The translations under genes and the position numbers were made by a program. A stretch of DNA of 64,000 bases from Apostichopus japonicus (lineage: Eukaryota; Echinodermata; Holothuroidea; Aspidochirotida; Stichopodidae). This document shows, piece after piece, positions 3,549-46,390 of this stretch. Below the pieces are notes generated by a model. That model saw only the letters and a program-made list of their open reading frames with translations, was not told the origin of the DNA and did not search any database. Every line of letters starts with the position of its first letter. Position 1 is the first letter of the stretch. The stretch is taken from contig NC_092573.1 in assembly GCF_037975245.1 (NCBI RefSeq), positions 12,420,001 through 12,484,000 on the forward strand. Reading direction: 5' to 3'.

Positions 3549-3647
3549 GGACGATGTTGTTAGAGATGGCGATGTCGGTAACATGAATGTAAAAAATTGT
3601 ATATATATATATGCTTTGAGCGTCTTTTTAGTAAGTTAAGCTACTGT

Positions 3648-3948: not shown

Positions 3949-4403
3949 ATTATATTATTATATATACGATATTACGATATGTATATTACGATATTATTTG
4001 CTATCGTATTTAATATAGAGGAAGTTAAATATCATCTGTTAGCGGTATTCGTTAAGCAGGTCAAATAAAATATAACAAAATAAAAATTCTTACCTGTCAT
4101 TGTACAGTCCCTGTAACAGTAAAAAAGTAGAGTATATGGAACATGGTGTATTATAGTAAGACGTTTACCATTCCAAATGATTTGAGGGTCAAAATGCAGA
4201 AAGCTGTTTGTCTTTCATTACGGTACAAAATTTGATGAAAATTTTCGCATGCGGGTATCTCTAACTCATAATAAAATGTTTTAATCTTTTCTAAATATTC
4301 GAAAAAGTTATAATATTTGATGAGTATATACTGACTTATGATAGTGTTTAAATAAAATGCAAGAAGGTATCAATAAATAGTATTCACTATTGTTTGCTTA
4401 GCG

Positions 4404-4440
4404 ACAGTTGCTGGTGGTGTTGCTATGCACCAGCAACTGT
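4404..4440. repeat. Perfect 13-bp stem-loop, copy A
   Basis: ACAGTTGCTGGTG and CACCAGCAACTGT are perfect inverted repeats around an 11-base loop. The whole hairpin is unchanged in copy B (23,471-23,507), although flanking bases have diverged. Confidence 0.85.
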
Positions 4441-20988: not shown

Positions 20989-22860
20989 ATCGATATGTAA
21001 GTGCATGGTGTAGGTTATTTCGTTGAATATGAACAGTTTCTACTTACCTTATATATACCTCAGACGTTACTAATTAAGGGAATTCAACTCACTGCTAATT
21101 AACAATTTTGGCGTTGTCTTAGCAAAGAACTGTTGATAAGTATTACTTGGTCGCACGAACAGGTTACTTATACGAAAACAGCAGCAAAATAGGCCTACTT
21201 TGGTATAGTAGAAACAAACCGACACATAGTAACCGACAATGCGCAAGCGACCACAACCCTTCGTGACCTCTACCGCTTTTCAGTTTACTCAGTACGACCA
21301 TGACTTTGTGAACTTGGCCGGCTACGGACCAGTCCAGATACGGATAGGGATTGATTGCCTGGAAGTGTCTCAGCCAGTGAGTTGTTATAACAACTGTCCC
21401 TGGTCTCAGAAACCTCGAAAGAAATTTCCAGGCAATCAATCTCAATTATTTTCGAGAAGTTAGCGATAGATGCTCACGTGTAAAGTGTTTTCTCTTCTAT
21501 GACACAGTTATGTACAAGCTTCCGTACTTTCCTGGAGACTGTGGGTAAACGGTTTTTTTTTTCAAACAACAGAAGAACAACAACAGCACCCTCACATCCG
21601 CCCTCTACCCAAAACCAATTTTCAAAGGACTTTTTTTTTCAAAATAGAGAAGTCTTTCGAGCTGCGACGGATGGTAGCACCAACCGTGTCGAATATCGAC
21701 TCAAACAAAATGATATGGTTTCAAAATATTATGAAAATGAAATAAAGTAAAGCAAACAATTTTAAATGTTACCCTGCAGTCAAAACTTTCAAGTTAGATC
21801 TTTGCTGACTACAAGTATTCAGCAAATATGCACTAATGCTGACCAGTTTACGAGGCTTTTGTATAATGATTCTATTGACGTTCCAAACAAGAAAAAGAAA
21901 AGGAAAGCCTCTTCTTTAGGGTCATTTTAGGCAATTTTCACGGGAATGGTTAACCATTTTCAGAAGATTTACATTGGGCCTCAACTCTCATGCGACATGT
22001 TATCAATATATTTTACCCTCACGGACACCGCTACATACGTCACAACTATAAGACCTATTTAAAAATCAAGGTTTTTCCGTTGCGCCTACGCAATGGGTAA
22101 GTATCAACCACACTATGTAACACTACGGGTATAGGGATCGCACATACATGATGTAACATTATGGGTAGGAATCAACCACATGATGTAACACTATTGGTAG
22201 GGATCAACCACAATACGTAACACTACGGGTATAGGGATCGCACATACATGATGTAACATTATGGGTAGGGATCAACCACACTATGAAAAAATGCATAGGG
22301 ATCAGCCCCACCACGTAAAACTATATGGGTAGCGATCACCCAACGAAGCAACTTGTTAATTAATGTGGGCTACAGTCTTCGATATTCATACATTGCTACT
22401 TCCAATCCTGAGTTCCAGGTTTCATCTATTATGGCAACGAACGCCAAAAATCATGTGAAGAAAATAACGTTTGGCAGTAGCAGAACAGCGATGGCGATGA
22501 CGATGATGTAGATGACGATGACGATACAGATGACGATGTTGTTAAAGATGGCGATGACGATGATGGAAGACAGGACGATGAAGAATATGACGATACATAT
22601 GACGATGTTGTTAAAGATGGCGATGTCGGTAAAATGAATGTAAAGATTTGTATATGCTTTGAGCGTCTTTTTAGTAAGTTAAGCTACTGTTATATTATTA
22701 TATATACGATATGTATATTACGATATTACGATATTATTTGCTATCGTATGTAATATAGAGGAAGCTAAATATATTACACATCTGTTAGCGGTATTCGTTA
22801 AGCAGGTCAAATAAAATTAAAAAAATATATAAATTCTTACCTGTACTTGTACAGTCCCTG

Positions 22861-23177
22861 TGTCATGTTTCCTTGTTTAGGTATATGAGTTCTTTCAAAC
22901 AATCAAGTAGAACACAGTCGACGTAGAGTATTAACAAATAACATGTTATTATTTATTGCGTTACATCATGCTGTACAGGACAGATATATAGGACGATATG
23001 TCCAAGGTTACTTGTTGACAGATGGAGAGACAGGGTGAAACAAGGACGAGCAGACGGCATGCTTTAACTTATATATCAATATGCAAATACACAGCTCATT
23101 AGCATACAGGTGCAGATTATAGAATGTAGTGCATCGTTTGCACACGTACATGTGAATGCATATTCAATAACATTACA
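22861..23177. mobile_element. Solo LTR (317 bp) with 5-bp target duplication
   Basis: The insert begins TGTCATGTT and ends AACATTACA, the TG...CA pattern with a short imperfect terminal inverted repeat. It is flanked by CCCTG at 22,856-22,860 and 23,178-23,182. Copy A has the single CCCTG empty site near 4,110. A 5-bp duplication with TG/CA ends is typical of Gypsy-like or related LTR retrotransposons; recombination between two LTRs would leave this single one. Confidence 0.85.
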
Positions 23178-23470
23178 CCCTGTGACTGTAAACAAGTAGA
23201 GAATGTTTATAAATGGTGTATTATAGTAAGACGTTTACCATTCCAAATCATTAAACAGTCAAAATGCAGAAAGCTGTTTGTCTTTCATTACGGTACAAAA
23301 TTTAATGAACATACACACGTGCGGATATCTCTAACTCATAATAAAAGATTTTAACCTTTTCTAAATAGTCGATTAAGTTATAATATTTCATGAGTATATA
23401 ATGACTAATATTGTTTAAATAAAATGCAAGAAGTTATCAATAAATAGTATTCACTATTGTTTGCTTAGCG

Positions 23471-23507
23471 ACAGTTGCTGGTGGTGTTGCTATGCACCAG
23501 CAACTGT
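23471..23507. repeat. Perfect 13-bp stem-loop, copy B
   Basis: Same stem and loop as at 4,404-4,440, with no change in 37 bases. Confidence 0.85.
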
Positions 23508-24312
23508 TACGAAATGAAATTTTTAGATTCAAATTATTAAACCACGCGACGATTTGACAAGTACGCATAATATTAATTACACAACAACTATACTACAACT
23601 TACACGGAGTCTTTTCTTTACCGATATAGTGTGACTGTATGTATGTATACAATCCCCCATCCCAGCCATGTATATATGAACAGTTGACCTTCCGAAGGTG
23701 GGGGTGGTGGGGGGGGATAAATATGGGTGGACGGGACTGTATGGGCTTCTATATCGACTTGTTTCTTTTCTGTGCATGATCGAAACTCCGATTCATCACG
23801 CCTATCGGAGCCATCTAGCAGATGATGGGGAAGGGTTTGGTTCTTCTCCCTCTGTGCGTTTTTTGAAGAAAAATGATAAGACCGATTTCCTGCATTCTAG
23901 AGATAAACTCCCAAATCATTATTATAGTATTTGTGTGCGTACGTGCGTGTGTGTGCAGACGTGACATTTGATAACCTCTCTTAACATACAAATCTATGGT
24001 AAAGTGATGTTGTTCCTTTCGATGTAAATTTAACAGAATGTTCAAATTTCGAGAAAAATATAAATCTAGGTGTCACGTGATGTTGTAAATACATCAATGG
24101 ATAAGTTATGGTCATAACATAGGTTCCACCTTCATATAAGGTATTATTATTAATAGTAATTATTAACAAGATAAGATCTGCCTTTTTCTCTCAGTTTAGG
24201 GGATTTTAAACTCCACCGTAGCCGTTTAGAATACAGAGATAATCTTTTGAAAGGCTATAACTTTATGCTTCTATTCATTTCGATGTAAAATTGACCAAAT
24301 ATTCAAATCTCT

Positions 24313-24617
24313 TGAAAAGTGCAAATCTAGTATCTAGCATCTCTTGTTGCAATTTAAAATCCTTCGTGTCTTGAAAGAATCAATAATGGCATCTTATACG
24401 GTTATAAGCCTATTGTTCATCTGATCGATCAAGAATCTCGCTTTATCTAATCACTTACAAAGAACTTTTCAGAGACGCATTGTTTTCTGCTTGCCTTGCA
24501 ACGAGTAAGATTTATTACCCCATCAGTTCAAGCTAAATTTAAATTGGATAATGTTTCAATGTCGTCCGTTAGGTCAGTGGGTCGAGCAGATGACTAAGAA
24601 GCTGATATCTCGAGTTA
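24313..24617. other. Start of the foreign block inside copy B
   Basis: Homology to copy A stops at 24,312. This stretch, up to the large hAT element, shows nothing recognisable. Confidence 0.4.
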
Positions 24618-24625
24618 GTTCGATA

Positions 24626-26802
24626 CAGGGACGTAGCCAAGGGGGGGGGGCAGGGGAGCGACCGCTCCCTCCCTTTCAGTGTCTATTTTTTTTTATACTG
24701 TCGTTTTTTAGCATGGTATTTTGTCAGTGCTCTTTTGATCTTGAATACTCGTCAGCTCCGTTAACTCGATTGTAATCGTAGTAACATTCACGCCTACTGA
24801 TTCAACTACTTACTTAGTTTGGCAGATGCAATTAGCTAAATTTAGCTTATAGCCAATTACAAGCCTACAGTTGGCCACTGCGTAATAAAATACATATTGC
24901 CTACCTAACCGCACTCTATGGAATGTCACGAACTGTATGCACAACAACGTCGACAACGTTCGTTCAATAAGTTGTTGCACGAACAGCATCTTATAAAGCT
25001 AAGCTAGCAATCGTACGTGATACGCACTTCCTATAAAGAATTATTACACTACTAATACACTGCGATAACGATATTTGTTTTTAGGCCACTGCATTTCTGG
25101 CTATATTACAAAATATGAAAGTTTATATTGTCCATCAGTTAAGTTCGTCAAATGTATTAAAGTCCAGACATTGGACAATAAACAAGAATCATCCTACTGG
25201 CAAACTTGTAAAAGAGATGTTTGTCTTTCTGATATATTATGTAAAAGAACATGTAAAAGAATTTAAACAGGAAACAAATCTGCTGATACTGATATCATAT
25301 GATCAGGGCGTAGCCAGTATGTAGCACGATAGTTTCATTCAACACTCTACCCGCCGAAAAAGACAATAGGATTCGATCTTGTCAGTTTTTTAACATGTAG
25401 TTTAGAACCCGTTTACGCAGATAATATTTCAGTTGAGAAAGCACTTGAGAAATTTGCATCAGATGGCAATCGTCGGATAGCTCTCGCCTTCTCCTATTAG
25501 GCTAACTTAAACATTTACTAGCTACAGTTGTATCAAAGACATTTCTGGACTATCTTTGCATCTACAAGTATCAGAAGTTGAAAAGTAAGTAAGACTACTC
25601 TGTACATGTACCTTCAAGGGCGGCGGAACCGGGGGGCACAGGGGGCAAGTATCCCCCACTTTTCCTCAGGTTAAAAATGTGCCCTTTTTCTACATAAAAC
25701 CTGTACTCTTGATCACCTTATTAGGTCAGCGATATTTCAGTAAGAGATCTAATCCTAATTTAGAACTATCAGGGGCGTAGCCAGTATGTAGCACTGTAGG
25801 CCCGGGCCTACACTTTTTTTGGCCAAGTTATCTTTTTTATTAAAACACCCATAATTCAAATCCATAAGCTTGCTGAACGAGTTTAAGAGTCTAGACAGGA
25901 AAAACTATTGAAATGAACGTAGCAAGATTATGGCTAAATTGGGTGACCTATTCTTCTGTCATCTAGGCTGTCATTCATATCGCGTGCGGTTTCATTCAAT
26001 ACTCTACCCGCCGAAAAAGATTAGGATACGATCTTGTCAGTTTTTTAACATCTCCTTAAGAACCCGTTTACGCAGATAAAATTTCAGTTGAGAACATTCC
26101 ACAGTCAAATTAGTTGATTAACAGACTTTATATGTATAGAGCTGCAGCACTTTGTTGCCTGTTGTTGTCACGATCGGCGTTCCAAGTTCCAAAACAGCCT
26201 TTTCGATAAACATTTACTAGCTACAGTTTTATCAAAGAAAATTACTGGCTATGGTTGTATCAAAGACATTTCTGGCCTATCTTTGTATCTACAAGTATCA
26301 GAAGTTGAAAAGTAAGACTACTAAGACGGGGGGGGGCGTCGATGGAGTGATGTGTATACGCAAATAAGATAATACAATCAGATTTATAAAGGGTACTAAA
26401 TATCAGGCTGCATCAGTCCAATCGAATTTCTGCAAAGTGCCCTTTGACGTCGGTGCCCCCCCCCCCCAGATTAAAGGTGCTTCCGCCGCCCTTGTGTACC
26501 TTGCTAATTTTAATACATTATGTATTATTGAATTACGTACTATTTTAACTCGTTTGTTTTTTGGGTTTAAAAGTGATATTGAATGAGGTTTCTCAAGTTA
26601 GCAAGAGGCCAGGGAACCAGAATGAACATTCGGGAAGGGCTGTTTCCTGCCATCTGGGGGGTTTGTAAAACCAAAAATTTTCTTGTACGCTCCGCGCCAA
26701 CCGATGGTGGCGCTCCGCTCAGATAGTCGTGCCTACAACTTTGGAAATCCATATCAATCGCAAAAAGTGCTCCCCCCTTTCAAATTCCTGGCTACGTCGC
26801 TG
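24626..26802. mobile_element. hAT-like element (2.2 kb) hosting a second, nested hAT element
   Basis: The left end is CAGGGACGTAGCCA and the inverted right end is CAGCGACGTAGCCAGG. Flanks are GTTCGATA (24,618-24,625) and GTTCGAGA (26,803-26,810), an 8-bp target duplication with one mismatch. A complete 880-bp element sits inside at 25,615-26,494. No transposase frame is visible. Two internal direct copies of a CAGGGCGTAGCCAGTATG-led segment (from 25,302 and 25,770) indicate repeated insertion or internal duplication. Confidence 0.7.
25615..26494. mobile_element. Nested non-autonomous hAT element (880 bp)
   Basis: The termini are CAAGGGCGGCGGAA in inverted orientation (14 matching bases). They are flanked by a perfect 8-bp duplication TGTACCTT at 25,607-25,614 and 26,495-26,502. 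G and C runs lie just inside both ends. The middle (about 25,770-26,320) repeats sequence found immediately to the left (25,302-25,605), so the element carries, or arose beside, a copy of its surroundings. Confidence 0.88.
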
Positions 26803-26904
26803 GTTCGAGACCCACCAAAGATAGACGAATGTGACAAAATTCTGTTTTGACTTTTCACTCCTTTTTCAGTCTCTTCTTTAAGTATTAGTTCTGAAGTTAG
26901 TTTT

Positions 26905-27080
26905 CTAGCTGATGTGTTGGTTAGAGCGACGGTGTAAGCGAAAGACCTTGCACTGCTAATTGAGTTAACCGTGGCTAGGGTTCGAGACAGGCTGGAGGCA
27001 TAATTTTTCTCCGGCTGTAGGTATGGTGCTTTTTGTGACCTAGGATCCCGTGCCATGTGTCCCTTGTTGTCGTTAACGAA
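26905..27080 (+). repeat. Possible tRNA-derived SINE
   Basis: A TTGGTTAGAGCGACGGTGT segment resembling an A box is followed about 70 bases later by AGGGTTCGAGAC, a good B-box match. No cloverleaf can be drawn, so a tRNA gene is unlikely. Confidence 0.4.
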
Positions 27081-28170
27081 CCCGGGAGGAACCGAGGAGG
27101 GTCGGTTGGTCAGAGGTCGACCAGAAGCGTCCTAAGTGGCTTGCGTGAATCCTTGCCTTTGGCCAGAGGGCGAGACACTCTCTGCGACCGGCATGTGTGC
27201 AGCCCATGACCACTGAATACGAGGTCCAATGAGTCGCTATCCTCTTAAAAATGTACATACGGAAGCTTACAAGTGCCATCTTAATATTTAATATATTTAC
27301 AAAACTATTACTTAAGTTGCGCCATCCTTTTTACTTCCTGCACAAAGAAAGGAAATCCCTTTTGTTGCACAAATCCTGATTGGTAATATTATCTTCTTTC
27401 CCAGTGAAGAGTGCATATTGGTAGTATGACGTAATTTTACATATACTCCTCATTAAGTTATAATTCGCAAAACTGATCAATAGTACTATTTTGTGTATTC
27501 TTCGTGGTTGGAAAGTTTTTCTTTTGGTTAATATCATGTTATAGTGACGTGCATGTATGTTATTGCGCGGTATCGATAAGCAATATTTCCATTTGGTTTT
27601 GTTTCGACTGAACTGTATAAACACTGTATAATTTGTAACAAATATATAATATGAATGTTTCTTAAATGGGAATGGCAGTTAACTGGTTAAGGACTAGAAT
27701 GCAAAATTTAATCAGGTAAAAAGGCAACATGGCCATTACTATATAAATTCGGTGGGGTTTTAACTTCAGGTGAGTCGTTTGCGTCCAGCACCTATCAGGT
27801 ATTATAAGCATTTACGTACACATGTAGAAGCTGGGAGAATGGCGAGGGCGGTGTTGGGAGACACCATGAAATTTGCTCCTGTACCCACTCTTCCCTATAT
27901 ACTCCTGGAAGGGTGGTATTGCCAGGGACGGGACAGCCCCCCCCCCCTCCCCCACCACCCGCGAAGTCAGCTTTTCCCTTCTTCTGGCCGGCACTATAGC
28001 TCTCTATTTTTGTTAACGCTTCCAATCTGAAAACTTATTTACTTGTCTACATAACTTCTACTTAACTTCCTGTACTAGTCAGCTTTTACTATTACATTGC
28101 TCCCCTGCAGGACTTTTCATGCTAAGTAGGAGCTAAGGAGATTTTCGAACGGGGTTGGTGCATGTTTGCG

Positions 28171-29942
28171 TATATGTGTGTTTGTGTGTGTGTGTGTGTA
28201 AGGGGGGGGGGGAAATTGTCCCCTCCATATATGATTTTTTAAATGTTTTCCTTTCTCTTTTTGCTCTGAAAAGTTTCTGACGTCTGGAAAATCTCGTGAC
28301 AAAAGAAGTGAACATTTTTCACAACCCCACTCTTTTGGTGCATGCGCACATGCAGAGTTTGCGGTCCGTCGTAGTTTAAGAATGAAAAGTGTAAAGGTCC
28401 TCTTAACCCATGAACTGGATTATAGAACAAAGACCCCGGCAGCCATTTCATAAAAAGAGAAAAAGAGAACATAAACACAGCCTATGCTTTATAGAGCACT
28501 CATGCCCCTTTCTATGTATGAGAGTGCCAGCCTGAGCCAAAACGTAATTTGTCTGAAGTATTCAATGCATTGGTGTTTAATAAGCACACAAAAAACAGCG
28601 GTCATGTCCTTCGGTGCAAATAAGGCGGCCAGAAGTTTACGGTAGTACGTTGAACTAGACAGTGACGTCAATGAGCGGACGATCGAATAAAGAGAAGCAT
28701 ATGAGACCCACTCATGCGTCAGGGGATGTTACAGTGGTTGAGCCCAGCTGGTACGGTGGTTAAAAAAATGAAGTCGATAGCCCATAGTGCTATGATCTTT
28801 ACTTCAGATGAAAATTAAATGGAAATTATGTTCCCTGTGTAGAGGAACGTGTTAGAACTTTTTGAACGCAAGCGTCAAAAATGCGTATCAAAATTAAAAC
28901 CGGATCAACCTGAACATAACATGGCACGCATGCAACCGCGAGGTAAATAATAAATCTTTTTCAATCAATGTAAAATCCCGTCATACCAGTTGAAAATCTC
29001 TTCAGTCTAACTTAGTGATCAAATCATTTGGTCACTGTTATATTGCTGATTTTGTAATAAGCGTGATATCATTTATTCCAAGACAGAACATTTGGTGCCT
29101 GCAAAAGTAACTCACAGTTTTTACATTAGCATATATACCTTAGAATGTTATTCTACGTTGATCGTTCCTGATATATTTTTGTTCGCAGTGATGGAACGGT
29201 TTGTAACTTAGATTTCTTACTTCTTTGCTAACGAACTTTAATGCAGGTGGATATGGGGGAGGGGGAGGGGGAGGGAGAGACACCCCTTTTCAGGCCTCCA
29301 GACATTCCCCTACATCGGGAATCGGCGTTAATATAAACCCAGGCCATACCTAGGGGCCTACCTAGACAAGAAAGTGATAACTTTCAACAAAAGGCTAAGC
29401 CCCGAGGTAACACGGCGAGGTAATAAGATTCCCCAAGTAAGCGACCCATGTTCGGGATAGAAACTGGAAAATATAGTAAAAATTGCACCAGTATACTCCA
29501 CCTTTCTGAAATGTGAATTCTCATAGGCCTTTGACTTTGAATACCGTGGCAGCTCGTGACTCGGACTTCAAACATATTTCGACATTTTTCTGTGGGTGAA
29601 ATCTGTGCAAAATAGTACACAACGTGCTTCATATACGCGCTCGAACCAAAACAAAATGAAGAGGGGAATCCATGGATTTGAAAATCTCATCTCCTTCGCA
29701 CAATTAAGGCCAATTTGACCTCTGACCTACATTGACATTTGACCTCGATTCTTAACAACCACATAGTACTATCCTAAAATGAGTCCCATTATTTTCTATA
29801 TATCTTGTGGTTTAATGAGTTCCACCAACATACTGACAAAATAGGTAATGGCTAAAATCCAGTTTTTGGGGTACTTGACCGTTGACCTCTGATCTTTGGC
29901 CTATGACGTCACCAATCACTCAGGCACTATTTTTTGTATGGT
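28171..29942. other. Intergenic sequence
   Basis: It starts with a GT run and poly-G (28,170-28,212). A GGGGGA repeat lies at 29,252-29,276. Near 29,700-29,790 and again at 36,087-36,190 are related TTGACCTxTGACCT-rich segments. No exon was recognised. Confidence 0.4.
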
Positions 29943-29950
29943 CAGGCACC

Positions 29951-30388
29951 CAGTGGCGTAGGAAGGTACTTTCCAGGTGGCCTCAGATGCAATTTGGTGC
30001 AATATAGCACACTTCAACACCCACTCCATTTTGTAAATAATTTTGCATTTCCACCTGGCCTTAGATGCAATTTGGTGCTCCAAATGAGATTTTTTTCTGC
30101 CAAAATGTTCTGGGCACCAAGGGCAGTTAGTTCCTTATTGATTATTATCCACAATCGCACAAACAAGTCATCACCATGTTTAGAATAAGATTAGAAAAAA
30201 TCATGACATATTATTTTTATTTTTGAGTGTTATATTAGACTCGATCACTCCCTGATATACAGGATATAGAAATGAAAAAGGGGTTTTCTGACTTGCGAAG
30301 CGGGGAGGGGGGCGGAATGATACTTCCGCGCCCCATATTTTTCACTAGGGGGGCTGGCGCCCCCCAGCCCCCGGTTCCTACGCCCTTG
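29951..30388. mobile_element. hAT MITE (438 bp)
   Basis: The left end is CAGTGGCGTAGGAA and the inverted right end is CAAGGGCGTAGGAA, 12 of 14 identical. Flanks are CAGGCACC (29,943-29,950) and CAGGCACT (30,389-30,396), an 8-bp duplication with one mismatch. Inside, TAGATGCAATTTGGTGC-like sequence occurs twice. There is no coding capacity. Confidence 0.9.
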
Positions 30389-30463
30389 CAGGCACTTACC
30401 CACCACATTTGAACATGACCAGACGTACAATTGTAGGAGGAGTTCGTGCTCTCTTAAATTTAT

Positions 30464-30660
30464 AGACTGAAATTTCAGTCTAATAGACTGAAATTTCAGT
30501 CTAAGAGCGGACGAACTGAGGGACCAGTTCCTTCAGACTGAAATTCAGTCTTAGGAAGGACTGAAAATTTTCAGTCTGTAAAACGACTGATTTTTAGTCT
30601 AGCTAGACTTAATGATTTCAGTGTAACAGGACTGGAATTTACCCTTTCTTAGACTGAAAT
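30464..30660. repeat. Left subterminal array of AGACTGAAATTTCAGTCT palindromes
   Basis: Two perfect 18-bp palindromes occur at 30,464-30,481 and 30,485-30,502, followed by near copies starting around 30,535, 30,562 and 30,645. Such arrays often serve as transposase binding sites in cut-and-paste elements. Confidence 0.85.
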
Positions 30661-31419
30661 TAAGCCAAATTAGATTAGAATCCAGCCTATAAGGTTTAAA
30701 TTATTTTATTCAATTAGACTTTAAAAAAAAAGTGGCTAGACAGAATATCGTCATTTTATAGTTTTAATTCAGGGATTAATAGTCCAATATGCCAGTCAAA
30801 AAACTGCCCAAAGGCACTAAATTGGGACGATTACAGTCGCCCTCCAGGCAGGTTAAAGGAAATTTCCCCATAAAATTGTAAAAATTCCTAAATGGAGTAT
30901 TATTTTAGAAACAACTGGTTAAAAAAGCAGGTTGATAGTTACATATTTTTAACTTAGATTTTGCTTTACAATATACAATAAAACAATAATTCATGGGAAC
31001 ATTCCACTAACTATGGAAATAAGAAAACAAAACACCTGTTTAAAGTTTAAAAACTGTACTAAAACTGTCTTTATTTATTTTCTTGGATACATTTAAGAAA
31101 TATAACAAAAATAATACAAAAGCTAAATTTGTTTGCTTGGGTTTTATTTATGATATCTTAGGTCTAAATAATGGTTATTTACCTAAACTACAAAAATAAA
31201 TTAAATGTAAAGTTTTAGTTATGAAATATTCCAAAAATTAAAGTTGCAATTTTTGTGCCGACGATTTGACATGCAAACTCTATAAATGTGGTCAAGTTTA
31301 CCAGAAATTTCTAATTTGACCATAACTAATTTATTTTGTGTCCTAAAAATTTAAGGATTGAAACATTTATTTTTATAGTTTTATTTAGTTTTAATTTAGT
31401 TTTTATTTAGATTCATACC

Positions 31420-32200
31420 TTTAAGTGAAACCCATGTGCAGCAGTTGCTGCAAATATAATAATAACCAGAACCAATTATGACAGGGCAAGTTCGTTTATC
31501 CTACAGATATCGATATAAAGAATATTAAAATGTAAAACTAAAATTGTACTTCAAGAAAAAATAATGGCAAAGGCCACTTGGAAAGTGACCAACAATGAAC
31601 GGATGCTGGCATAGGCCACTTGGAAAGTGACCGACAATGGACGGATACTGGCAAAGGCAATTTGGAAAGTGACCGACAATGGACGGATACTGGCATAGGC
31701 CAATTGGAAAGTGACCGACACTGGACGAATACTGGAAAAGGCCACTTGGAAAGTGACCGACAATGAACGGATTACAATTGACGGATAACAGATTACACTC
31801 AACTTATGTACAGAGAAGGCAAGTTCCTAAATAAAAAATAATGTATATTAACAACTGGAATATTTTTATATAGTGTCCTAAAAATCTAAGGCTTGAAACA
31901 TTAATTGTTATGTTTTAATTTAAATTCATACTTTTTAAGTGAAACCCATGTGCAGCAGTTGTAGCAAATATAATAATAACCCGAACCAATTATGGCAGGG
32001 CAAGTTCTTTATTATACAGATATTGGTATAACGAAATTTAAAATATTAAACTAAATTGTACTTAAAGAAAAAATAATGGCAAAGGCCACTTGGAAAGTGA
32101 CCAACAATGAACGGATGCTGGCATGGGCGACTTGGAAAGTGACCGACAATGGACGGATACTGGAAAAGGCCATTTGGCCAAGCCCTTCTTCCAAGCTCCA
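31420..32200. repeat. Internal duplication with 42-bp tandem repeats
   Basis: A unit starting AAGTGAAACCCATGTGCAGC at about 31,422 recurs at about 31,937. Each copy ends in tandem 42-bp repeats containing TTGGAAAGTGACCGACAATG: about five at 31,571-31,775 and about three at 32,083-32,180. Since 42 is a multiple of 3, one minus frame stays open but is not a believable gene. Confidence 0.85.
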
Positions 32201-32395
32201 GCCTCTTGTCACCCCAACATTTTTTATACTCCCAACCTCTCCACCTACCCTTCAGGGTTTTCATTTCTGCTGCTTATTCCCAACCCCATCTCTTACCAGC
32301 CCACACCATTCTGACACTCGTTTCTCATAATTGAACCATTTTTGGAAACTGACTGACCCGACAATGGATGGATTACAATTCAGAATTGTACCAAA

Positions 32396-35300
32396 CTAAG
32401 TTATAATACCGATAGTACTGGTGTTTAAATAAACAAAACAATTGTTTACATGACACAACATCAAAATGAAAATACAGCATACAAATAAACACTTGCAACA
32501 CCACTCTAAAAAGCTACTTTTAATTAAATTAATGTTAGATGCCAAGCTACGCAATGGTGCCTTTACTGACGTAGCAGGAATCACTCCATATAAAAAGGCA
32601 GCTAAGAATTCACAGAATTGATGAAGTGCCAAAGCATAATGCACATTAAATGTGTAATGTGCTTTAAATAATCTATCCACTTGTTACTTGTTCCTGCAGG
32701 AATTGGAATTCTATCCGCCAAAAATAAAGAACTGTGACGGATTTTGGGTAGGTCCGAGTGAAAGTATATACAGTTGTACATACTTTCCATCTATTCCGGC
32801 AGCGGTAGCATCAATGCTGGTGTCAAGCTAGAAAGAAATGACAAAAAAATATGTATATTTTACTCCATACTATTAAATTAACATCTGAACATTAGGCAAA
32901 CTGCCAATCTAAATATTCCATGAGACTTCCAGTTTATTCATACGAATAAAATTTTACATAAACTAAACTTCTTACATGATCTCCCTAGAATGTCACTAAA
33001 AATTCACAAACCTTTGACAGGCAACTTTACAAAATTTGGTTATTACAAACCCTGGACAGACTGGCAGAGTGTACCTTCAGTATCAATAATTGTACATCTC
33101 AGACACCTGAAGGGTTCATAAGTCAACCGTTTTTCCATCTCTATCTTTGTTATTCCTTACTAAAAATGGCATATATATTGGTTGGCTTTACATTTAAAAA
33201 TATTATGTCACTTTACTACAATTGTGACCACAATGGGCATTCTCCCCCAAACACCCCTATTAAATTCCCTTTTTGCCGGTTTTCCGCCTTGCTCCACGTT
33301 CTTGTCAGTATCGCTGCCAATCAGACAGTGCTGAATAAATTATTCCTGCTTTACATTGCCATAATAAGTGTTTTTTCCTACTCTATACAAGTCACTTCCA
33401 TTGAGCCATGATGATTATAGAGCCAGTGCCTATACCATTCAGTAGCGCCAATGGAAAAGAGCCATAAGACCCAGTGGATATGATGCTAACCTTAATATAC
33501 ACCAGACAAACTTTTTTCCACATAACAAGCCAATTTTTGTTTAGCCAAGCAAATTTTGTAAAACCAAAACTTTTCCACTAAACGCAGGGGTGTTTATATA
33601 GCATTGAGCAAGGGAATTAACGGTATATTGTCATAAAATACTCACAGGTTTGTTCTGAAGGAAGTACAACAGTGCCCCTGCTCTGCTAGTGGACTGCTGC
33701 TTCTGCTTTAACATAGTCACTGACCTGTGCAGTATATATATAAATGTATATAAAGCACACATATCCTCTGAAAAGAAAATTGAGTTTGAAGTTTTAAACA
33801 TAACCTCCAAGGCATAGTATGTGGCTAATTAAATGCAATAAATCATAGAACAAGTAAATGTGAACAAATGGCACATTCCATAAATAACCTTTTTGAATAT
33901 AATCCAGATAAGTTATACATCCAAATAAATAATTCTGTATTTTCACAAACTATAAAGTTATTGATAAATTGATTTTTTAAAGTTATGGTTCATTGAATTT
34001 TGGATGACAATCTGCTCAAATTAAATTGTGTCATATTTCTAATCGTAAACAGGAAAAAATGTTTATAGTACTTTAAGTGCTTGATTTCAAAGAATATTCA
34101 CAGAAAATTTAACTATGATGTTTATTATTGCCTATATGGTAATAAGAAAAAATAAGAACAATTAAGTTTTCGGTCTTAATTTTAAACCTTTATCTATCAA
34201 GCTGCCACAATTTGCCCAAATTGAGAAAAAGAATAAAATTTAGAACTTTCCAGCCTCTTACCAAGGGGTAATGCCCAAAACGTTATTGATTGGTTAGCTA
34301 GAAAAAGGCATACAAAGAAAACTTTGAAATATGATAGCTATACTAATTTAACTTACTACTATCAGTTTCCTCAAAAGCATCAATCATATTTGCGATAGCT
34401 GGTGAGGTTTTCTTTCTCACTTCTATGATGCGTTCTCTATATCCATCCCACTTTGTGATGAAGTTTTCCCTGGATTCGGCAAACATTAATCGAAACTCCT
34501 CATTTATCTGAAAGAAATGTAAACATTTTATTACTGCAAATCAGAATGCTAGGAGATTTTTCTAGTATCACAATTATGAAACTTACTACATCAGATCTGA
34601 ATTTTGCTTCTTCAGTTATCTTTTGACTGAAAAGAAGGTTATGATTATTAGAAATGCTTGATATAGCGCATTATACGTAAACCGGTCTCAATGCCCTTTA
34701 CAATGGAAAAATGCGCAGCTAGCCTACAGATAACATACTTAACTGGCTGCAAAGCACATCTACCTGCAATAAAGCTACTGAAAAATCGCTGGCACAGGAT
34801 TCAAACCTGCAACCTTCAGCATCTCAGTCTGGTGCTCTACCAACTGAGCTAACCCGTAAAAGGGCCAGCGGCCTGTCATGGACGATTTGATTACCCACGC
34901 CCCACTGGCTTGAATTAGCCAATAATGTCCAACACTCCTATTTTAGATGGGTATGGAAATGTGTTATTATTTTTGTTTGCTACTAATAGATGTGTTAGGC
35001 ATTTATCTGAAACATATTCAAAGAAAAAGAAAGCATTTTCAGTACTTTTCTTTTAAATTACAATTAAAGAAGTGAAAAATCTAGTATTTCTCCATTGACT
35101 GTAATGATAAGTGACCCTACGAAGTGACCAAGTAGAAACCATATTGAGCCCTATAGCACCAGTGCCTAACGGCCGGGTAAATAGCCAATGCCTTTTCACT
35201 TAGGCTAAGTAAACTTGTATGCGCAGCCTGCAGGGTAGGAATAAATTTTCTTCAAAAAAAAAATCATTTATTAAGGACTAACGTTAGGGGCCTAACGTTA

Positions 35301-35687
35301 GGCTAAGCCTTGTTTTTTTCGTTTTAACCGGTACCTATTAATTTCAGTTGGCACACTCTGAATAGGCTTGCCTAATTTAGTAATAATTAGTAAAATATCA
35401 CTAGGCCTAGGCCAACACTAAATTACTCGTAACCAGTGACACAATAGACGTACATGTACGACAGTCTGACAGTACAGTGTATACCGGGCCATAGTATAAC
35501 TATACTAGGCTATAGCCAACTGTACTACTACTGTACTAGGCATAGCATTGTTCTTGTTAACGCTATGACTGCGTATGAGTATGAATCGATTAAAAACGGC
35601 CTGTTTTAATATTACCTTCGAGCAATGATATTACTTCTTCTGCATATCCTTTACCTGCTAAACACGTTCTCAATGTTTCTGCCATTC
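32396..35687 (-). CDS. Unknown spliced gene carried inside the 5.6-kb element, with a damaged last exon
   Basis: Minus-strand exons: 35,618-35,687 (MAETLRTCLAGKGYAEEVIS...), 34,587-34,626 (QKITEEAKFRSDV), 34,357-34,507 (INEEFRLMFAESRENFITKW...), 33,646-33,719 (TMLKQKQQSTSRAGALLYFL...) and a last exon from 32,827 down (LDTSIDATAAGIDGKYVQLY, then IFGG, a stop at 32,711-32,713, and after frame disturbance VDRLFKAHYTFNVHYALAL). Exons 2 to 5 join in frame with good GT-AG sites. The first exon ends in a phase that does not fit exon 2, so an exon is missing or mutated. In the last exon, IPIPAGTS lies in a shifted frame between the two in-frame parts, which implies two compensating frameshifts or assembly errors. 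The LFKAHYxFNxxY motif resembles uncharacterised proteins I cannot name. No catalytic motif was seen. Confidence 0.6.
34755..34870 (-). repeat. tRNA-derived SINE-like insertion in an intron
   Basis: On the minus strand, TTAGCTCAGTTGGTAGAGCA (A box) precedes GGTTTGAATCC (B box) with tRNA-like spacing. The position of the anticodon would read GAG, but neither the anticodon stem nor the acceptor stem pairs. It is a SINE head or tRNA pseudogene. Confidence 0.6.
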
Positions 35688-35869
35688 TTATACCCTCGTG
35701 GAAAGCTTAAAAAGGTTAGTTTTTACACATAAAACGAAGCGTAAATTCTCTCGGTATTCAAGGTAAGTTCAGCTAAGATGGCGAGTCGATTCAACGTTCG
35801 TACGTACCTACGTACGCGGCCGGGCATATGTAGATTAGGATACGTCATTAATTTGGACAGACCGGATTG

Positions 35870-36064
35870 GTTTAACTGTTCAGTCTTCGCATGGACTGAA
35901 ATTAAAATGAGCACGTGACAAAATACAATGATTTTATTGGGTATTGCATTCAGTCTATTGTAGGCTGAATTACGTTCGGAAACAATTCCAGTCTTAGCGT
36001 CTGGAAATCGGTCTTATGGACTGAAATAAATTTCAGTCGAACCTTAGACTGAATTTTTCAGTCT
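35870..36064. repeat. Right subterminal array of AGACTGAAATTTCAGTCT-type palindromes
   Basis: Near copies occur at about 35,881-35,900, 35,950-36,010, 36,018-36,038 and 36,046-36,064 (AGACTGAATTTTTCAGTCT). They mirror the left array and define the element's right end. Confidence 0.8.
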
Positions 36065-36079
36065 TCAAATTTAAGAGAG

Positions 36080-36791
36080 TGACACACAATTTAGACCAAT
36101 TTGACCTTATGACCTCACTTGAACTTTGAGCCCGAACCTAAACACCTAAATATGTCCTATTTTAAACTTCGTCTCATCATAAACCTAACAATGGATTGAA
36201 CTTTAAAATATTCCTTTAAAACTGAATAAAAAAATTGATATTTGTTTGCTGTACTTTAGATTCTTATCGTTTAGTTTACGGGAAAATAAAGGTAATTTTT
36301 TAGAACAAAGTACATGTTAACCATCGTCGTGTTGCTTGATTGTAATGAAAATGAATTCATCCTGCATTGTCAAGCGAAATCAAAACCTATGTAAGCGTAT
36401 TGTGTACGAGAAGATTATTTCATGGAAATTACTGACTTTGGCGGACTGGTAGTTTCGATTCATAGATTCAGACATTATTAACTCAAATTATGGTTAATTG
36501 AATGGAACGTTAATCATGTGTTACAATTATTACAGTGTTTATGTCGTGATGAATTGATGTATTCTTCCTTCGCCTTTATGTCAAAGTATTATAAAATACA
36601 CCATTCGGACTAGCTATCTATCGTGCAGATAAATCGACTATGATCATAAAGTTCTTAAGGCATTTCTGTATCATTTATTCTCCGATGAAAAACAGCCACA
36701 CAAGAACTTTGCTTTAGGAAACAGATGTTCCTTGACTAATATTAGCCCCTAGATAAGGACAGAACTAATTCCTATCATAGATCCTTACCAG
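36080..36791. other. Flank of the 5.6-kb element
   Basis: The TTGACC-rich start resembles 29,700-29,790 on the other side of the element. No gene was recognised. Confidence 0.4.
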
Positions 36792-36972
36792 AATTGATGA
36801 CGTTACAGTTGGAAGGATTCAGCTGGATGGCAATGGCTATTATGAAACAGTCATCACTTATCAGCATCTTGGTATATCGTCAGAATTGTATAAAGCATTA
36901 TCATCTGCCATTTGGCAGATATTAAATTGGGAGCCACGCGTAGCAACGATTGGCAGTTTCGAAAAAGGCACG
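36792..36972 (+). CDS. Probable internal exon of an unknown gene
   Basis: The segment is bounded by CTTACCAG and GTAAGTTT. It is open throughout in one frame: one base, then 60 codons (IDDVTVGRIQLDGNGYYETV, later ISSELYKALSSAIW and ATIGSFEKGT). It starts needing two bases from a previous exon and ends in phase 0. The amino acid composition looks like a real globular domain, but I do not recognise the family, and neither neighbouring exon was securely found. It lies between the 5.6-kb element and the foldback repeat. Confidence 0.5.
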
Positions 36973-37346
36973 GTAAGTTTGTTATTATATTAATTAATAG
37001 CTTAGGCTTTTAAATTGACACATGGGAAATCAGTCGTGTTTTGAGAGCATACTCTGCGATGAATTTGCACTTCGAAAATTGCTTGTTTTACAATTTAAGT
37101 TAACGAAACAAAAAACAAAAAAACTTAAGAAATTGTGAATGTTGCTCGTATTAAATTATTGATTTAAATACCGTACTTGATGTGTTTATGTATTCCGTAA
37201 GCCTATCTGTGTGTCTTACTAACGGATGACATTAAGCTAAATATTAAGCTGAATAAGCTTAATAAGACATTAAGCGGAATATATAAGGTGAAGTGTTAGA
37301 GAGTCCACGAAAAGGAACAAAAAGTGCAAGCAATGTTCAAACTTGC

Positions 37347-38946
37347 GGAATGCCAAATGTATAAAAAAAATGTCCAAAACAATATAAGCATGTCCAAAAT
37401 AATATAAGCATGTCCAAACTAATACAAACATGACGAAACTAGTATAAGTATGTCCAAAAATAATATGAGCATTCTAAACATTATATGAGAGTGTCGAAAA
37501 TAACATGAACATGCCGAATGTAACTGCTAACTTCATATATGTAGTGAACATTTTGGCGTTTGATTTCACGTCATTTCTTGCAAAATGTCCAAATACAATC
37601 TAAGCATGTCCAAAATAATATAAGCATGTCCAAACTAATATAAACATGTCGTAACTAATATAAGTATGTCCAAAACTAATATGAGCATCATGTTCAAAAT
37701 TATATGAGAGTGTCGAAAAATAATATAAATATGTTGAATGTTACTGCTAACTTCATATATGTAGTGAACATTTTGGCGTTTGAATTCACTTCATTTCTTG
37801 CAATATATTCAAAATAATATAAGCATGTTAAAAATAATAGGAGCATGTCCAAACTTATATAAACATGTCGGAACTGATATAAATATGTCCATAAAAATTA
37901 CTTAAGCATGTCAAATAATCTATGAGTGTCGAAAAATGATACGAGAATTTCCAACATAATAAGTGTGTCGAAAAGCTTATACAAAAGTCTCGAGCGTAAC
38001 TGCTGAATTTAATCTAGTTACGCCATATGTTCCAAATATCATTTTTTGTTTGAGGTAATAGCGCATATCAAGCGAAAAGTAATACAATGTACACTTTATC
38101 CATTACCGTCTTAATGTATGTGTTTGAATTTTAATGATATTTCGGTCGAGAACGATTTTATTTTTCGAGATAATATTAGTTGAGTTGTTTCGTAAAGCGA
38201 GTGGTCGACCGGCTCCAGAGTGCTTCAACTATCAATGAGTTACGAAGAACCATTGTGTCCAATGCGGATGCACCAATGATCTGTAGTTGAAGGCTTGTTT
38301 CCACTTTTCCAACTTGAAATTTATTTAAAAGTTGAGAGTGAAGATTACTCTTTATAATCCGCGAAAACCACTCACATTACGGAGGGATGTTAAAAACAAA
38401 TATGGTGCTGGTCTTGTATCTACATATTCTGAATTGTTTGCTTCACAAAGCAGAAGAAATGGTGCAATATTGTAACGTCACAATGATTATCATGGTGTCA
38501 TTATAGATACAGAGTAATTCCAAAGAATATATTGATAAGCTGAATTTGTTTTCGAAATACCAATATAAAAGTTCGATATTTGGACCACATAGCGTGACTT
38601 CAAACGCCACAGTTACGCTCGAAACTTTTCTATTATTTTTCGACACTCTTATATTATTGTGTACATGCTCATATTATCTTTGGACAAACTTATCTATGTT
38701 TGGACATGATCATATTAATTTGTAAATTCTTATATTATTTTGGATATTTTACACATATGACGTAGCTTAAAACGCAATTTTTTTTTACCATACCATTGAA
38801 TTTAGAAGTTACACTCGACCCTCTTGTATTATTTTTCGACACTGTTTAAATATTTTACACATGCTCATATAACCTGTCGACATGTTTATATTATTGAGGA
38901 CATGCTTATATTGCTGTGGACATTTTTTTGATACATATGGCATTTC
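37347..38946. repeat. 1.6-kb foldback element with ATGTCCAAAATAATATAAGC arrays in opposite orientation
   Basis: The left arm (37,347 to about 37,995) consists of roughly 20-25-bp units of the type CATGTCCAAAATAATATAAG, arranged in larger repeats of about 230 bp that also contain CTTCATATATGTAGTGAACA. The right arm (about 38,590-38,946) carries the same motifs in reverse complement (for example CTTATATTATTTTGGAC-like). The outermost GAATGCCAAATGTAT at the left is inverted as ATACATATGGCATTTC at the right. The central 0.6 kb is unique. No ORF is present. Confidence 0.75.
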
Positions 38947-39757
38947 TTACAAAATATTCACCTTTAAAATGTGCTAAATCTTTGGAACGCTCCTTTGGGG
39001 TTAAAAGATGATGACTTCAGTGCAGGCCTCAATATTAACATTAGTTCATGTTTTACATAAATTAATAGCTCAACCAAAATGCATTATTTTCACTTCATTT
39101 ATACAACAGAGCATCCTTGGATGATATTGAACACCATTTGATCTTGACCACTTGGGAACATATTATAAAAACGTTATTTGAAGCGTCATTAAGCCACAAA
39201 GGTCTTAAGTTTTCCTATTGGGTTATGTGTTGCATCTGAGGAACTGACGAAATCTGTGTATTAGACTACATCGTCCAGCCATCTTAACTGATGGACCCCA
39301 GCTGTTTGAAAGATCTCCAAAGGTCTCCAAAATTGATAAACCTGGACATATAGAAGTGGGTCTTTACCGGTGTACTACATGTCGGAATTAATGTAAAGTC
39401 ATCCTTTAATGTAAACATTTGTTAAATGTTGCAATGAGGAGAGCCTAAACAAAATTAGCTCCTTGTTACAGTTACTACTTCGAATTTGTCTGAAAATACC
39501 ACTTTACGTTCCTTCCAAAGAAACAAAGATGGCATATACTTGTTATTAATCGCTTTCATTTATCATGTTGTCAATTTACTACAAGAAAATGGTTTTATTA
39601 AAGTGAAATATTTAAGAGCTCCCAGTAGCTGAAAATCTGAAAAATTTACGAACGTTTGTGTTGAGAGTATCTGCATAGCATGTGATTATTGAAACACAGT
39701 TACCGAACGTAGCGCTGTCATACATATCAATACTTGATACGTCTGGTTTGGTAAGTT
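38947..39757. other. Intergenic sequence
   Basis: No recognisable feature. Confidence 0.35.
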
Positions 39758-39779
39758 TTGATGTGTTACGCACGATTTC

Positions 39780-39940
39780 CAGTAATCTGTTTATTTATAC
39801 TTGTTGACAATGAATTCAATGCTACAATTTCATCGACAGCATCGACAGCCTGTGTCCATTTCGAGTTCTTGTACACATTAGATGAATACCAAATGCATAG
39901 AGAGTGGGGGAAAGACTATGGATTTTGCTGCTATAATTAA
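39780..39940 (+). CDS. Possible exon fragment, plus strand, unknown
   Basis: The stretch is open up to a TAA at 39,938-39,940 and encodes VDNEFNATISSTASTACVHF followed by EFLYTLDEYQMHREWGKDYG. A CAG acceptor-like site lies near 39,782. There is no ATG that fits and no family match. Composition is the only support, so this is weak. Confidence 0.25.
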
Positions 39941-39950
39941 GTGCTATTGT

Positions 39951-40235
39951 TTAATGTTGCAAATTTGTATCAAGTTTCCGGAAGCAAAAATTCTCTTTTC
40001 TTGTATTAGAGTTAATCAATAAAATATATGGTATCCTCTCAGTTAGCCTCTTCTCTATGACAGATGTTCTTTCAGTTCCCATCATATCATTATGCGGATC
40101 ATATATTGGGTATTCGGCTCCATCTGGAAAAGCCATTGTGCAGTTATAATGATAAATGGGCACACCGGAGTAAGTTCCCTGTAGGTTAGAATCGGGTGAT
40201 ATCAATTTAGAGTGTCGTTCGTAAACATCATACAT
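39951..40235 (-). CDS. Possible exon or gene fragment, minus strand, unknown
   Basis: This is a 94-codon frame with an ATG at 40,233-40,235 and a stop at 39,951. It reads MYDVYERHSKLISPDSNLQG, later PDGAEYPIYDPHNDMMGTER. Codon content looks protein-like. It would be convergent with the plus-strand candidate just to the left. I do not recognise the family, and it may be a terminal exon of a gene whose other exons were not found. Confidence 0.3.
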   Translation of the reverse strand: MYDVYERHSKLISPDSNLQGTYSGVPIYHYNCTMAFPDGAEYPIYDPHNDMMGTERTSVIEKRLTERIPYILLINSNTRKENFCFRKLDTNLQH

Positions 40236-41199
40236 ACCATATCATGATTTTTTGTTGTTGGCATAAGCCGTCACTTTTGTATGCTTGAAGGATTCATTAT
40301 TTAATGTATAGAATAGATTCAGAAGGTGTTAGAACATAATGAAATAATAGTAATAATAATAATAATGATGTTACGGTGATCGTGTGTAAATTAAGCCACG
40401 TAGTCAACAGAAAGTGAATATCATGATTGTTCATCTGTTAAAAAAATGATTTCATTTCATTTTTTCATTTCATTTCAATTTTGATTGTGGGAAAAAATAA
40501 GAGACTCGTTGTGAAATTACACTATGAAATCAACACAGTAACTGTTCATTCTCAATATCCAGCATTGATGATAGAAAGACATGTAATGCAAAACAATGCA
40601 AAGCATCATTGAGAAAGGTTTCTATAACAGTAATGTATGAAGTATAATTGAATTATATATAACTGAAGTATATGAAGTATAATCCACTATAAAGTTTCAA
40701 GAATGGAGCTGAATTGATGAATGCATGCAGAGAGTCTCTGGTAAACAATATATCTGAAGTACACCACGAGTGGCGGGTGATACTACTGTTAAGAGGTATA
40801 TTTCAAAGCAGCATGTGATGTGAAGTTACACGGCGACGAAATGATATGAACCCGTTATTGCTGTGTCAGCTTATGGCGTAATATTGTTAACCATTATTAG
40901 GTAATCTCTGCAGAAAAAGGGTAGCATGATGAATGTTATGTGAAACATTTCTTCGGCTAAATACCAACTAAAATCGATAATATCTTGTTATTCATGAGTC
41001 TGTACATGTTAACAACCTATTGCCCTTTGAATCGTGTATCACAGTAACCTTTGATCTCTCCAATATTCATCTGCGAAAGGGAAACTGTGTTCTACACAAT
41101 ACGGAGTCGCGGTTGGTATAGAAATTTAATAGAGTTACATGTTACATACTGTATATTGAAAGTAGCAACATGTTATCATTTCTACTTTCATTTCAACAG
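40236..41199. other. Sequence between unknown exon candidates
   Basis: It holds a short TAA microsatellite near 40,345-40,368 and otherwise nothing identifiable. Confidence 0.35.
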
Positions 41200-41268: not shown

Positions 41269-41924
41269 GTTCACACACTCAAGTTAAATTAATAAACTGA
41301 CAAGTGTTTTCTAAAATATATACTTACCACAATGAAGATGATTAAAGAAGAAATGCTTCGTGTTCAATGTGCTTGAGTCTATTTTTACTTAATACTGGAA
41401 ATATCATTTCCCAGGAGCAACATCAGGACGCTCAGCACGCGAAACTCTTCCTTCTTTTTAGAATTGTATTACTGACGCCTTACTTTGAGCGTTATGCAGT
41501 GAGATAAGGTAACCTTAAACATTCCATTTAAGAAATGAGGAAACTATTATTTTATGGATATGTTAAGTATTGAAATGTTCCATCGCTGTAGAGCGGTAGC
41601 TTTCAAGAAGTTTAATCAACGCATATAGAAATTGGATGGTGAATTGCATTTTGACAACCTTATTCATGGGATTTATGTCATAAATTGAATAGAGTGATTA
41701 AAATATCTTCAACATCGGAAAGAGCAGTGTACAGTACATGTACGATATTTTGTTTAACGTTATTCTGAATATGATTGCATCCTCTTCAAGTACAACACTG
41801 TCTCGAATTACAAGAATTTGTTTTTTAAAGGGGAAACATTGTTTCGATTCAAATACAACAACAAAATTCAAGGACTCGCCATTTTTGTTTTTGACATTAG
41901 AACATAATTTGAGTGGCTAAAACG
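41269..41924. other. Upstream flank of the GPCR gene
   Basis: No other gene is visible. An in-frame TGA sits just before the GPCR reading frame, so translation cannot extend upstream. Confidence 0.5.
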
Positions 41925-43004
41925 ATGGAAGAACCAACCGCTGTTGCAAACGGAACATTGACTCTCTTAAATTTGAACATAACGAATGGTTTTGTGTGGA
42001 AATCAGTCGAATGGAACTGGTGGGTCATTTGTCAGGCACTGTTGGCTGTAGTCGGCTTACTAGGAAACACAGTTGCAGTGCTTGTTTATTCCATAAGAAG
42101 TCAATTCGATAAGTCTACGTGTTTTCTTATAAAAGCGTTAGCGGTTGCAGATTTCGTCTCCTCGATTAGCTTCATTCCTCTACGAACAGCTGCAACTGTC
42201 CCTGACAATTTCATGGGACACCTCTACTGCAAATTTATTTTCCCAAATGTTACTCTTTGGCTTTCCGTAGTTGCTTCAATTTTCACATTGACAGCTATCT
42301 CGGTGGAGAGATATTTAGCAGTTGTTCATCCAATAAAATATCGGAAATACTTTTCGAATACGCATCCACAGATCGTTGTTCTCTCTATTTGGCTTAGTTC
42401 TGGTGTCATTAATTCATGTAGCTTGTTTATTTCTCATCGTGACCCTGACACTGGCGTGTGCTTTGTGAGCTTTGGAACGTCTTTTATTCAACATGTTATT
42501 GGAATTTTCTTATTTTTGGTAGAATATTTTCTTCCAGTACTAATTATGATTTCAACTCAAGTTATAACTATCAAACATTTATACACTGAGGACAAAACTA
42601 CAAGCCATGATGGAATGACTAGGGGAACATCTTCAAATTCCACAGTACGGCAAACTAGATTTGTGTTTAAAGCGCGAAAGAAGATCGTTCGAATGTTATG
42701 CGTAGTAATTTTGATATTCGTGATTTGCTGGACACCCGATCAACTAGCGTTGATAACATTTCATCTTGGATTAACGGAGCCGCAATATTTGGCTGGCGAT
42801 GTCTATCGAATATTTGTGGTCCTCGCATTTTGTAATTCTTGTGCCAATCCATTCATCTACGCTGTCAGTAATCCACAATTCAGAGAAACTCTGCGACAAA
42901 TACTGACTCGACAGGCTCAAAGTATTGGACTTACAATTGGAAGCACACAGAGCACACCGCCGAATGATGCCACCCCTTCACGAAATGAACTTTCTACAGT
43001 GTGA
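41925..43004 (+). CDS. Class A (rhodopsin-like) G protein-coupled receptor, intronless, orphan
   Basis: A single-exon 359-residue receptor. The ATG at 41,925 has a purine at -3; the GTG in frame 12 bases earlier is not a plausible start. The N-terminus has two N-glycosylation sites (N9, N18). TM1 carries GN48, TM2 has LAVAD with D76, and C102 and C179 are the expected disulfide pair. TM3 ends in E128-R129-Y130, TM4 has W156 and TM5 P204. The third intracellular loop is Ser/Thr-rich and basic at its end, TM6 has C268-W269-T270-P271, and TM7 has NPFIY (308-312) followed by a short basic helix 8. All hallmark residues are intact, so it should fold and couple to G proteins at the plasma membrane. 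The sequence resembles peptide-type receptors, but the ligand cannot be assigned. An AATAAA lies at 43,254-43,259. Confidence 0.93.
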   Translation: MEEPTAVANGTLTLLNLNITNGFVWKSVEWNWWVICQALLAVVGLLGNTVAVLVYSIRSQFDKSTCFLIKALAVADFVSSISFIPLRTAATVPDNFMGHLYCKFIFPNVTLWLSVVASIFTLTAISVERYLAVVHPIKYRKYFSNTHPQIVVLSIWLSSGVINSCSLFISHRDPDTGVCFVSFGTSFIQHVIGIFLFLVEYFLPVLIMISTQVITIKHLYTEDKTTSHDGMTRGTSSNSTVRQTRFVFKARKKIVRMLCVVILIFVICWTPDQLALITFHLGLTEPQYLAGDVYRIFVVLAFCNSCANPFIYAVSNPQFRETLRQILTRQAQSIGLTIGSTQSTPPNDATPSRNELSTV

Positions 43005-46000: not shown

Positions 46001-46390
46001 TGTAATCTGTCATATTCCCCTAATCTCACTGAAGATATGTGTCTCATTGTCAATTTTCCACTTGTTGTATGACTGTTTGTATTTGTGGCTAATTACATAG
46101 ATATCGCTGACATGAGACTTGCACTTTAGACTACCACATTGATCTGAAATGTCGCGTTATTGGACCTGCCACAATGATGGTTCATTTCAACCCACGCAAA
46201 ATGTATATATATTATAGAAATGGACGTAGATCATAAAATCTTGCAAACGTCGGCTAAAAGTTCTATGTTCCTTACGGAGTGATATTTTGTAGTGTTAATT
46301 GTGTTCTAGTACTAGAAAACCAAAACAAAGATGTAAGTCAAGATTCGCGAATCCATTTTTTCAATTAAAAGACCATGGTAACTTGCTGGA
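43005..46390. other. Intergenic sequence
   Basis: It holds the GPCR 3' untranslated region with a TA-rich microsatellite (43,096-43,126), then AT-rich DNA without recognised exons. Confidence 0.4.

Follow-up and report, generated by a model that had tools for sequence, protein, structure and literature searches.

Gene-carrying elements with terminal inverted repeats (TIRs) have been described in animals as Pack-TIRs, whose captured pieces are small, with a median of 224 bp, and which are called by known TE ends together with an identified parental copy (PMC8277862). In plants, CACTA elements frequently capture genes and carry subterminal repeats with units of 10-20 bp, direct as well as inverted, according to the description in PMC8195511. 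The termini of CACTA/EnSpm elements are given as CACTA or CA..TG (PMC8195511, PMC12730594) and their target duplication as 2-5 bp (PMC12730594), and the TRC group of CACTA is characterized by a TIR starting with CCC and a 2-bp duplication (PMC4298943). Target duplications of 0, 2 or 3 bp are listed for the Harbinger/ISL2EU/Spy group and of 8 bp, or 5-7 bp in some members, for hAT (PMC12730594), while Kolobok is described by a TTAA duplication with RR..YY termini (PMC9587614).

The locus that we compare with these systems lies at 30449-36079 of a 64-kb window (64000 bp, the whole stretch of DNA analyzed). Its neighborhood includes a GPCR reading frame (41913-43004), a methyltransferase fragment and, at two locations, exons of MFS transporters, which together with the introns indicate a eukaryotic and probably animal genome. 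A large segmental duplication links 772-5643 with 21188-28155, with pieces longer than 300 bp being 80-88% identical, and the duplicated region that carries the MFS transporter exons (46388-51400 and 59725-64000) contains pieces of 67-91% identity. At 6863-8178 there is a 60-bp tandem repeat of 21.9 copies at 95%, with long open frames on both strands. To the left of the focal element is a 438-bp hAT-like short element (29951-30388; ends CAGTGGCGTAGGAA / CAAGGGCGTAGGAA) with CAGGCAC, 7 of 8 bp, at either flank. On the right, a second element-like structure of ~1.6 kb (37349-38944) consists of inverted arms of a 20-bp tandem unit, ATGTCCAAAATAATATAAGC, with the ends AATGCCAAATGTATAAAAAAAATGTCC / AAATGCCATATGTATCAAAAAAATGTCC.

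The focal element is 5631 bp long, was read over its whole length and is framed by inverted ends. Its left terminal inverted repeat (30449-30472, plus strand) is complementary at 22 of 24 positions to the right one (36056-36079, minus strand). Within the window, 24-mer inverted pairs with at most two mismatches and 1-10 kb apart were limited to this 30449/36056 pair and one other cluster, which is the array element at 37349-38944, and no such pair occurred in any of six simulated windows; the 24-nt inverted ends are beyond chance. The exact 13-bp inverted ends from which the sequence-only reading had started, CTCTCTTAAATTT at 30449-30461 and AAATTTAAGAGAG at 36067-36079, are indeed present and exact, but their significance comes from the extension to 24 nt. 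Taken alone, the 13-bp match is weak and at chance level, because 33 of the 56 exact inverted 13-mer pairs found 1-10 kb apart in the window belong to the array element at 37349-38944, and a remainder of 23 is about as many as expected from 40 order-3 Markov simulations (mean 20.8, maximum 39). The 13 bp of the ends also recur at 41962-41974, inside the GPCR reading frame, and there is a 17-bp exact inverted match between 36064-36080, which is the right end plus one base beyond it, and 41961-41977 in that frame. We take this 17-bp match to be a coincidence. Beyond the terminal repeat, the left and right ends are only partly alike.

A comparison of the flanks at the outer edge of the inverted repeat (offset 0) found TG common to both, at 30447-30448 on the left, where it is preceded by GTTCG, and at 36080-36081 on the right, where it is followed by ACACACAATT, and nothing longer. 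These two dinucleotides are the candidate copies of a target-site duplication, and a match of this length is expected by chance about once in 16 cases. A different boundary is suggested by the TTAA that is present nine bases inward of both ends, inside the inverted repeat. It is correctly placed on both sides for a TTAA-type transposon whose true ends would lie at offset 9, with the TTAA duplications inside the 13-bp repeat and CTCTC/GAGAG as target sequence, although this arrangement needs a palindrome of 5 bp to have arisen by chance beyond the ends and would make the ends AT...AT instead of the 5'-RR/YY-3' of Kolobok as described (PMC9587614). We therefore regard a TTAA-type element as scarcely probable.

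A repeat (CACAATT..GGCCAATTTGACCT..) is also present in the surroundings of the element as diverged copies, at 29699 to ~29790 and at 36085 to ~36180, with the homology on the right beginning ~5 bp past the element end. The resemblance between the right flank (from 36085) and the sequence from 29699 onward has a score of 35, which was reached by none of 1000 shuffles. Between the left flank and the region upstream of 29699 there is no resemblance, the score of that comparison being reached by 738 of 1000 shuffles, and the repeat was rejected as an empty-site witness since the left flank is without a match there.

Behind the inverted repeats, both ends carry arrays of the half-site GACTGAA, of which the window has 26 copies. 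Nine of these are found in 30449-30720 and seven in 35860-36079, so that 16 of the 26 fall in two ends totaling 492 of 64000 bp, whereas the 5.1-kb interior between the arrays has one copy and the remaining 58 kb of the window has nine. In the left subterminal array (30463-30658, plus strand), eight of the nine half-sites form four dyads with spacers of 1-4 bp (2, 2, 1 and 4); in the right array (35879-36064, minus strand), four of the seven half-sites form two dyads, with spacers of 6 and 3 bp. All six GACTGAA-N(1-6)-TTCAGTC dyads of the window are located in the two ends, as determined by a search that allowed spacers of up to 8. When 7-mers were screened for pairs of 220-bp intervals, 2-10 kb from each other, that both contain six or more copies, only GACTGAA, ATATATA and CCCCCCC qualified. 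The window has 39 palindromes whose arms are 8 or longer and whose loops are 6 or shorter; seven of them, one of which spans two others, lie within the 492 bp that the ends make up. The mirrored subterminal palindrome arrays reported from the sequence are real and concentrated in the ends. Because the half-site is conserved while the spacing varies (1-6 bp), we infer that the bound unit would be the half-site or a hairpin arm and not one rigid dyad.

Each array is accompanied by a single terminus, which points outward at both ends, and a sequence like CTCTCTTAAATTT (at most two mismatches) was found once at each element end and nowhere else within 24038-41122. Given one terminus per end, the two arrays are better understood as the ends of one element than as two complete short elements. 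The same observation bears on the possibility that a decayed host gene merely lies between two opposite-facing end fragments of a repeat family, left by two truncated insertions, which never formed one mobile unit. A single locus was seen in the 64-kb window, where no second copy of the element was found; the flanks match over just 2 bp; and another inverted array element (37349-38944) is close by, all of which would suit two separate fragments. However, two independent truncations that leave one outward terminus for each array are a less likely origin than one element, and we consider the two-fragment explanation unlikely. With regard to the TIR transposon architecture that had been proposed, the inverted ends and the arrays are confirmed, and mobility is what we infer from this anatomy alone.

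The interior carries a spliced gene of ~3.2 kb on the minus strand, which lies wholly between the ends and starts with an ATG at a distance of 394 bp from the right one. The first exon, E1 (35616-35685), begins with this ATG and comprises 23 codons followed by the donor GTAATA. E2 (34587-34626, 40 nt; acceptor CTTCTTTTCAG, donor GTAAGT) is in phase with E3 (34357-34507, 151 nt; acceptor TTTCTTTCAG, donor GTAAGT) and not with E1; since E1 ends in phase 1 and E2 needs phase 2, an exon between them would be missing or unrecognized. E4 (33646-33767, 122 nt; acceptor TTTTCTTTTCAG, donor GTGAGT) is open in the expected frame, and its phase fits both E3 and E5a, the first part of the last exon (32714-32827; acceptor TTTCTTTCTAG). 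E2 to E5a are thus four exons with consensus splice sites and one common reading frame. Two in-frame stops follow in the last exon, the TAG at 32711-32713 that ends E5a and a stop at 32684-32686, and past them E5b (32513-32680) continues this frame without a stop. Together, the joined chain and E5b amount to only ~200 residues.

Codon scores, for which the training set was 879 codons of this window only, give weak support for the gene. Compared with a null distribution (95% point 0.092, 99% point 0.148), the score of E5a (0.238) is above the 99% point, that of E3 (0.139) falls between the 95% and 99% points, and that of E5b (0.097) is just above the 95% point, with the expected frame being the best of six in all three. 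The expected frame was not the best of six in E1 (0.006), E2 (0.031) or E4 (-0.032). Since the codon scores are weak, the evidence for the gene comes mainly from splice sites and phases. The multi-exon spliced gene that the sequence-only reading had recognized therefore holds with respect to its four exons, splice signals and phases but is not intact, and pseudogene may be the best term for it, unless the breaks stem from errors in sequencing. A search of the 64-kb window for a second copy of the exon proteins found none that was convincing, the best other match having an E value of 0.57.

In the search for a transposase, we scanned all 34 stop-to-stop frames of the element that reach 50 residues, together with two shorter ones, against Pfam. 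No Pfam transposase was found in these 36 frames or in the spliced chain, in agreement with the earlier statement that no known transposase is visible, though one split into shorter pieces could escape such a scan. The only match at cut-off was to DUF1582 (25.2 bits against a cut-off of 25, E 1.4e-05), which falls on an array of a 42-bp tandem unit and which we took as spurious. The other matches in these frames were weak and below cut-off, the best being Ig_CycH (E 0.0022) and Biopterin_H (E 0.018), and were taken as chance or low-complexity matches.

For the spliced chain, neither Pfam nor NCBIfam returned a family at cut-off, in line with the earlier description of the gene as of unknown family; FBPase_2 in Pfam (E 0.054) was below cut-off and one NCBIfam match (E 0.052) was far below it. 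Comparison of the chain with the PDB gave no convincing structure, and a single match at E 0.082 was taken as chance. In IMG/VR, six stretches fit the pattern of the E2-E5 chain and none was confirmed; in the GTDB genomes, none of 589 pattern matches, obtained with E5b only, was confirmed; and patterns of the element ends had no match in either collection. These absences say little because neither collection is of animals. The chain is reminiscent of the large families of uncharacterized 'SAMD3-like' genes in fish and invertebrates, and E1 would resemble the opening half of a SAM domain. E1 was scanned against Pfam in three versions (24, 38 and 31 residues), all of them too short for a decision, with no match, and a literature search gave this identity no support, so that it serves as a lead and not as evidence.

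These results bear on whether the gene belongs to the machinery of the element. It could encode the element's own transposase or an accessory protein, such as a binder of the GACTGAA array, of an undescribed superfamily, with the present copy having decayed. This would accord with the location of the gene wholly inside the ends, with its start 394 bp away from the right one, and with the finding that no family is recognized for it. On the other hand, ~200 residues of chain and E5b contain no recognizable transposase, the broken frame means that the present copy could not supply the protein, and no relative appeared in IMG/VR for the E2-E5 chain or in GTDB for E5b, which is weak evidence because animals are not what these collections cover. 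We judge the own-gene explanation distinctly unlikely. A more specific version, in which the product would be a non-DDE-like or strongly diverged recognizer of the GACTGAA array in an undescribed system, with a dead copy here and intact copies elsewhere in the genome, has in our estimation only a slender chance of being correct.

Two further components were found in the interior. The intron that separates E1 from E2 contains a tRNA-like segment (34790-34854, minus strand), which matches Rfam RF00005 with 40.6 bits; since ARAGORN reports no tRNA gene there, the segment probably represents a SINE head of tRNA origin. An internal duplication (31330-32177, plus strand) is formed by 31330-31665 and 31865-32177, which are 85% identical, and comprises two arrays of the 42-bp tandem unit. 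The choice that had been offered between a new transposition system and a captured gene is thereby shifted toward the latter: cargo fits better because the reading frame is broken and because the tRNA-like segment and the internal duplications also lie inside, and a role of the gene in a new transposition system is unlikely.

Taken together, we consider it probable that the element is a decayed non-autonomous cut-and-paste TIR transposon of 5631 bp whose cargo is a spliced gene that is now broken. The designation as a non-autonomous TIR element follows from inverted ends and end-concentrated half-site arrays around an interior in which no transposase was seen. A transposase from an unseen relative might have bound to the GACTGAA half-sites, brought the ends together by way of the inverted repeats and cut the element out, after which the element would have inserted at its present site and duplicated 2 bp (TG) there. 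The enclosed gene would have travelled along and then decayed, possibly gaining the tRNA-derived SINE in the process. Several points stand against the cargo-carrying transposon: no second copy was found in the 64-kb window, the candidate target duplication is 2 bp only, the ends are only partly alike beyond the terminal repeat, E1, E2 and E4 have no codon-score support, and a gene of ~3.2 kb is unusual compared with the small pieces that animal Pack-TIRs are described to capture (PMC8277862). As a single decayed locus, this is a modest annotation result. If copies exist, however, it would represent an animal TIR element that took along a spliced gene together with the start exon, far above the median Pack-TIR piece as given in PMC8277862, and the half-site arrays would be a direct handle on the missing transposase.

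When set beside the described systems, the element resembles Pack-TIRs (PMC8277862) in having two DNA-transposon ends around non-transposon sequence that is partly exonic; it differs from them, as they are described there, in enclosing a spliced gene of ~3.2 kb and in being recognized by its anatomy, not by known TE ends and a parental copy. With CACTA/EnSpm and TRC-like kin (PMC8195511, PMC4298943, PMC12730594) it shares short TIRs followed by subterminal repeats of short units in both orientations; the half-site is 7-8 bp, and the dyads of 15-20 bp fit the 10-20 bp units described for CACTA (PMC8195511). The TG would also fit the 2-5 bp range given for the CACTA clade (PMC12730594), with a chance of ~1 in 16. 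However, its termini are CTCTC and not CACTA or CA..TG, on which ground we rejected membership in CACTA/EnSpm by the published definitions (PMC8195511, PMC12730594), and no transposase was seen. The TRC group as described (PMC4298943) was rejected likewise, since the element starts with CTC and not CCC.

Like Kolobok as described (PMC9587614), the element has a TTAA within its inverted repeat, but reading it at offset 9 leaves AT termini instead of RR..YY, no transposase was seen, and membership was rejected. For hAT, the flanks share 2 bp at the inverted-repeat end and not the 8 or 5-7 bp that PMC12730594 gives, and this assignment was rejected as well. The 2-bp TG would lie within the range listed for the Harbinger/ISL2EU/Spy group (PMC12730594), a likeness in the length of the candidate duplication; no transposase was seen in the element. 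The 'unassigned superfamily' of the sequence-only reading thus stands only weakly, by way of published descriptions of CACTA, TRC and Kolobok termini and of hAT flanks. The element would work like a known kind, and its superfamily may, in a weak sense, be set apart by these descriptions from CACTA, TRC, Kolobok and hAT but not from others such as Harbinger/ISL2EU/Spy.
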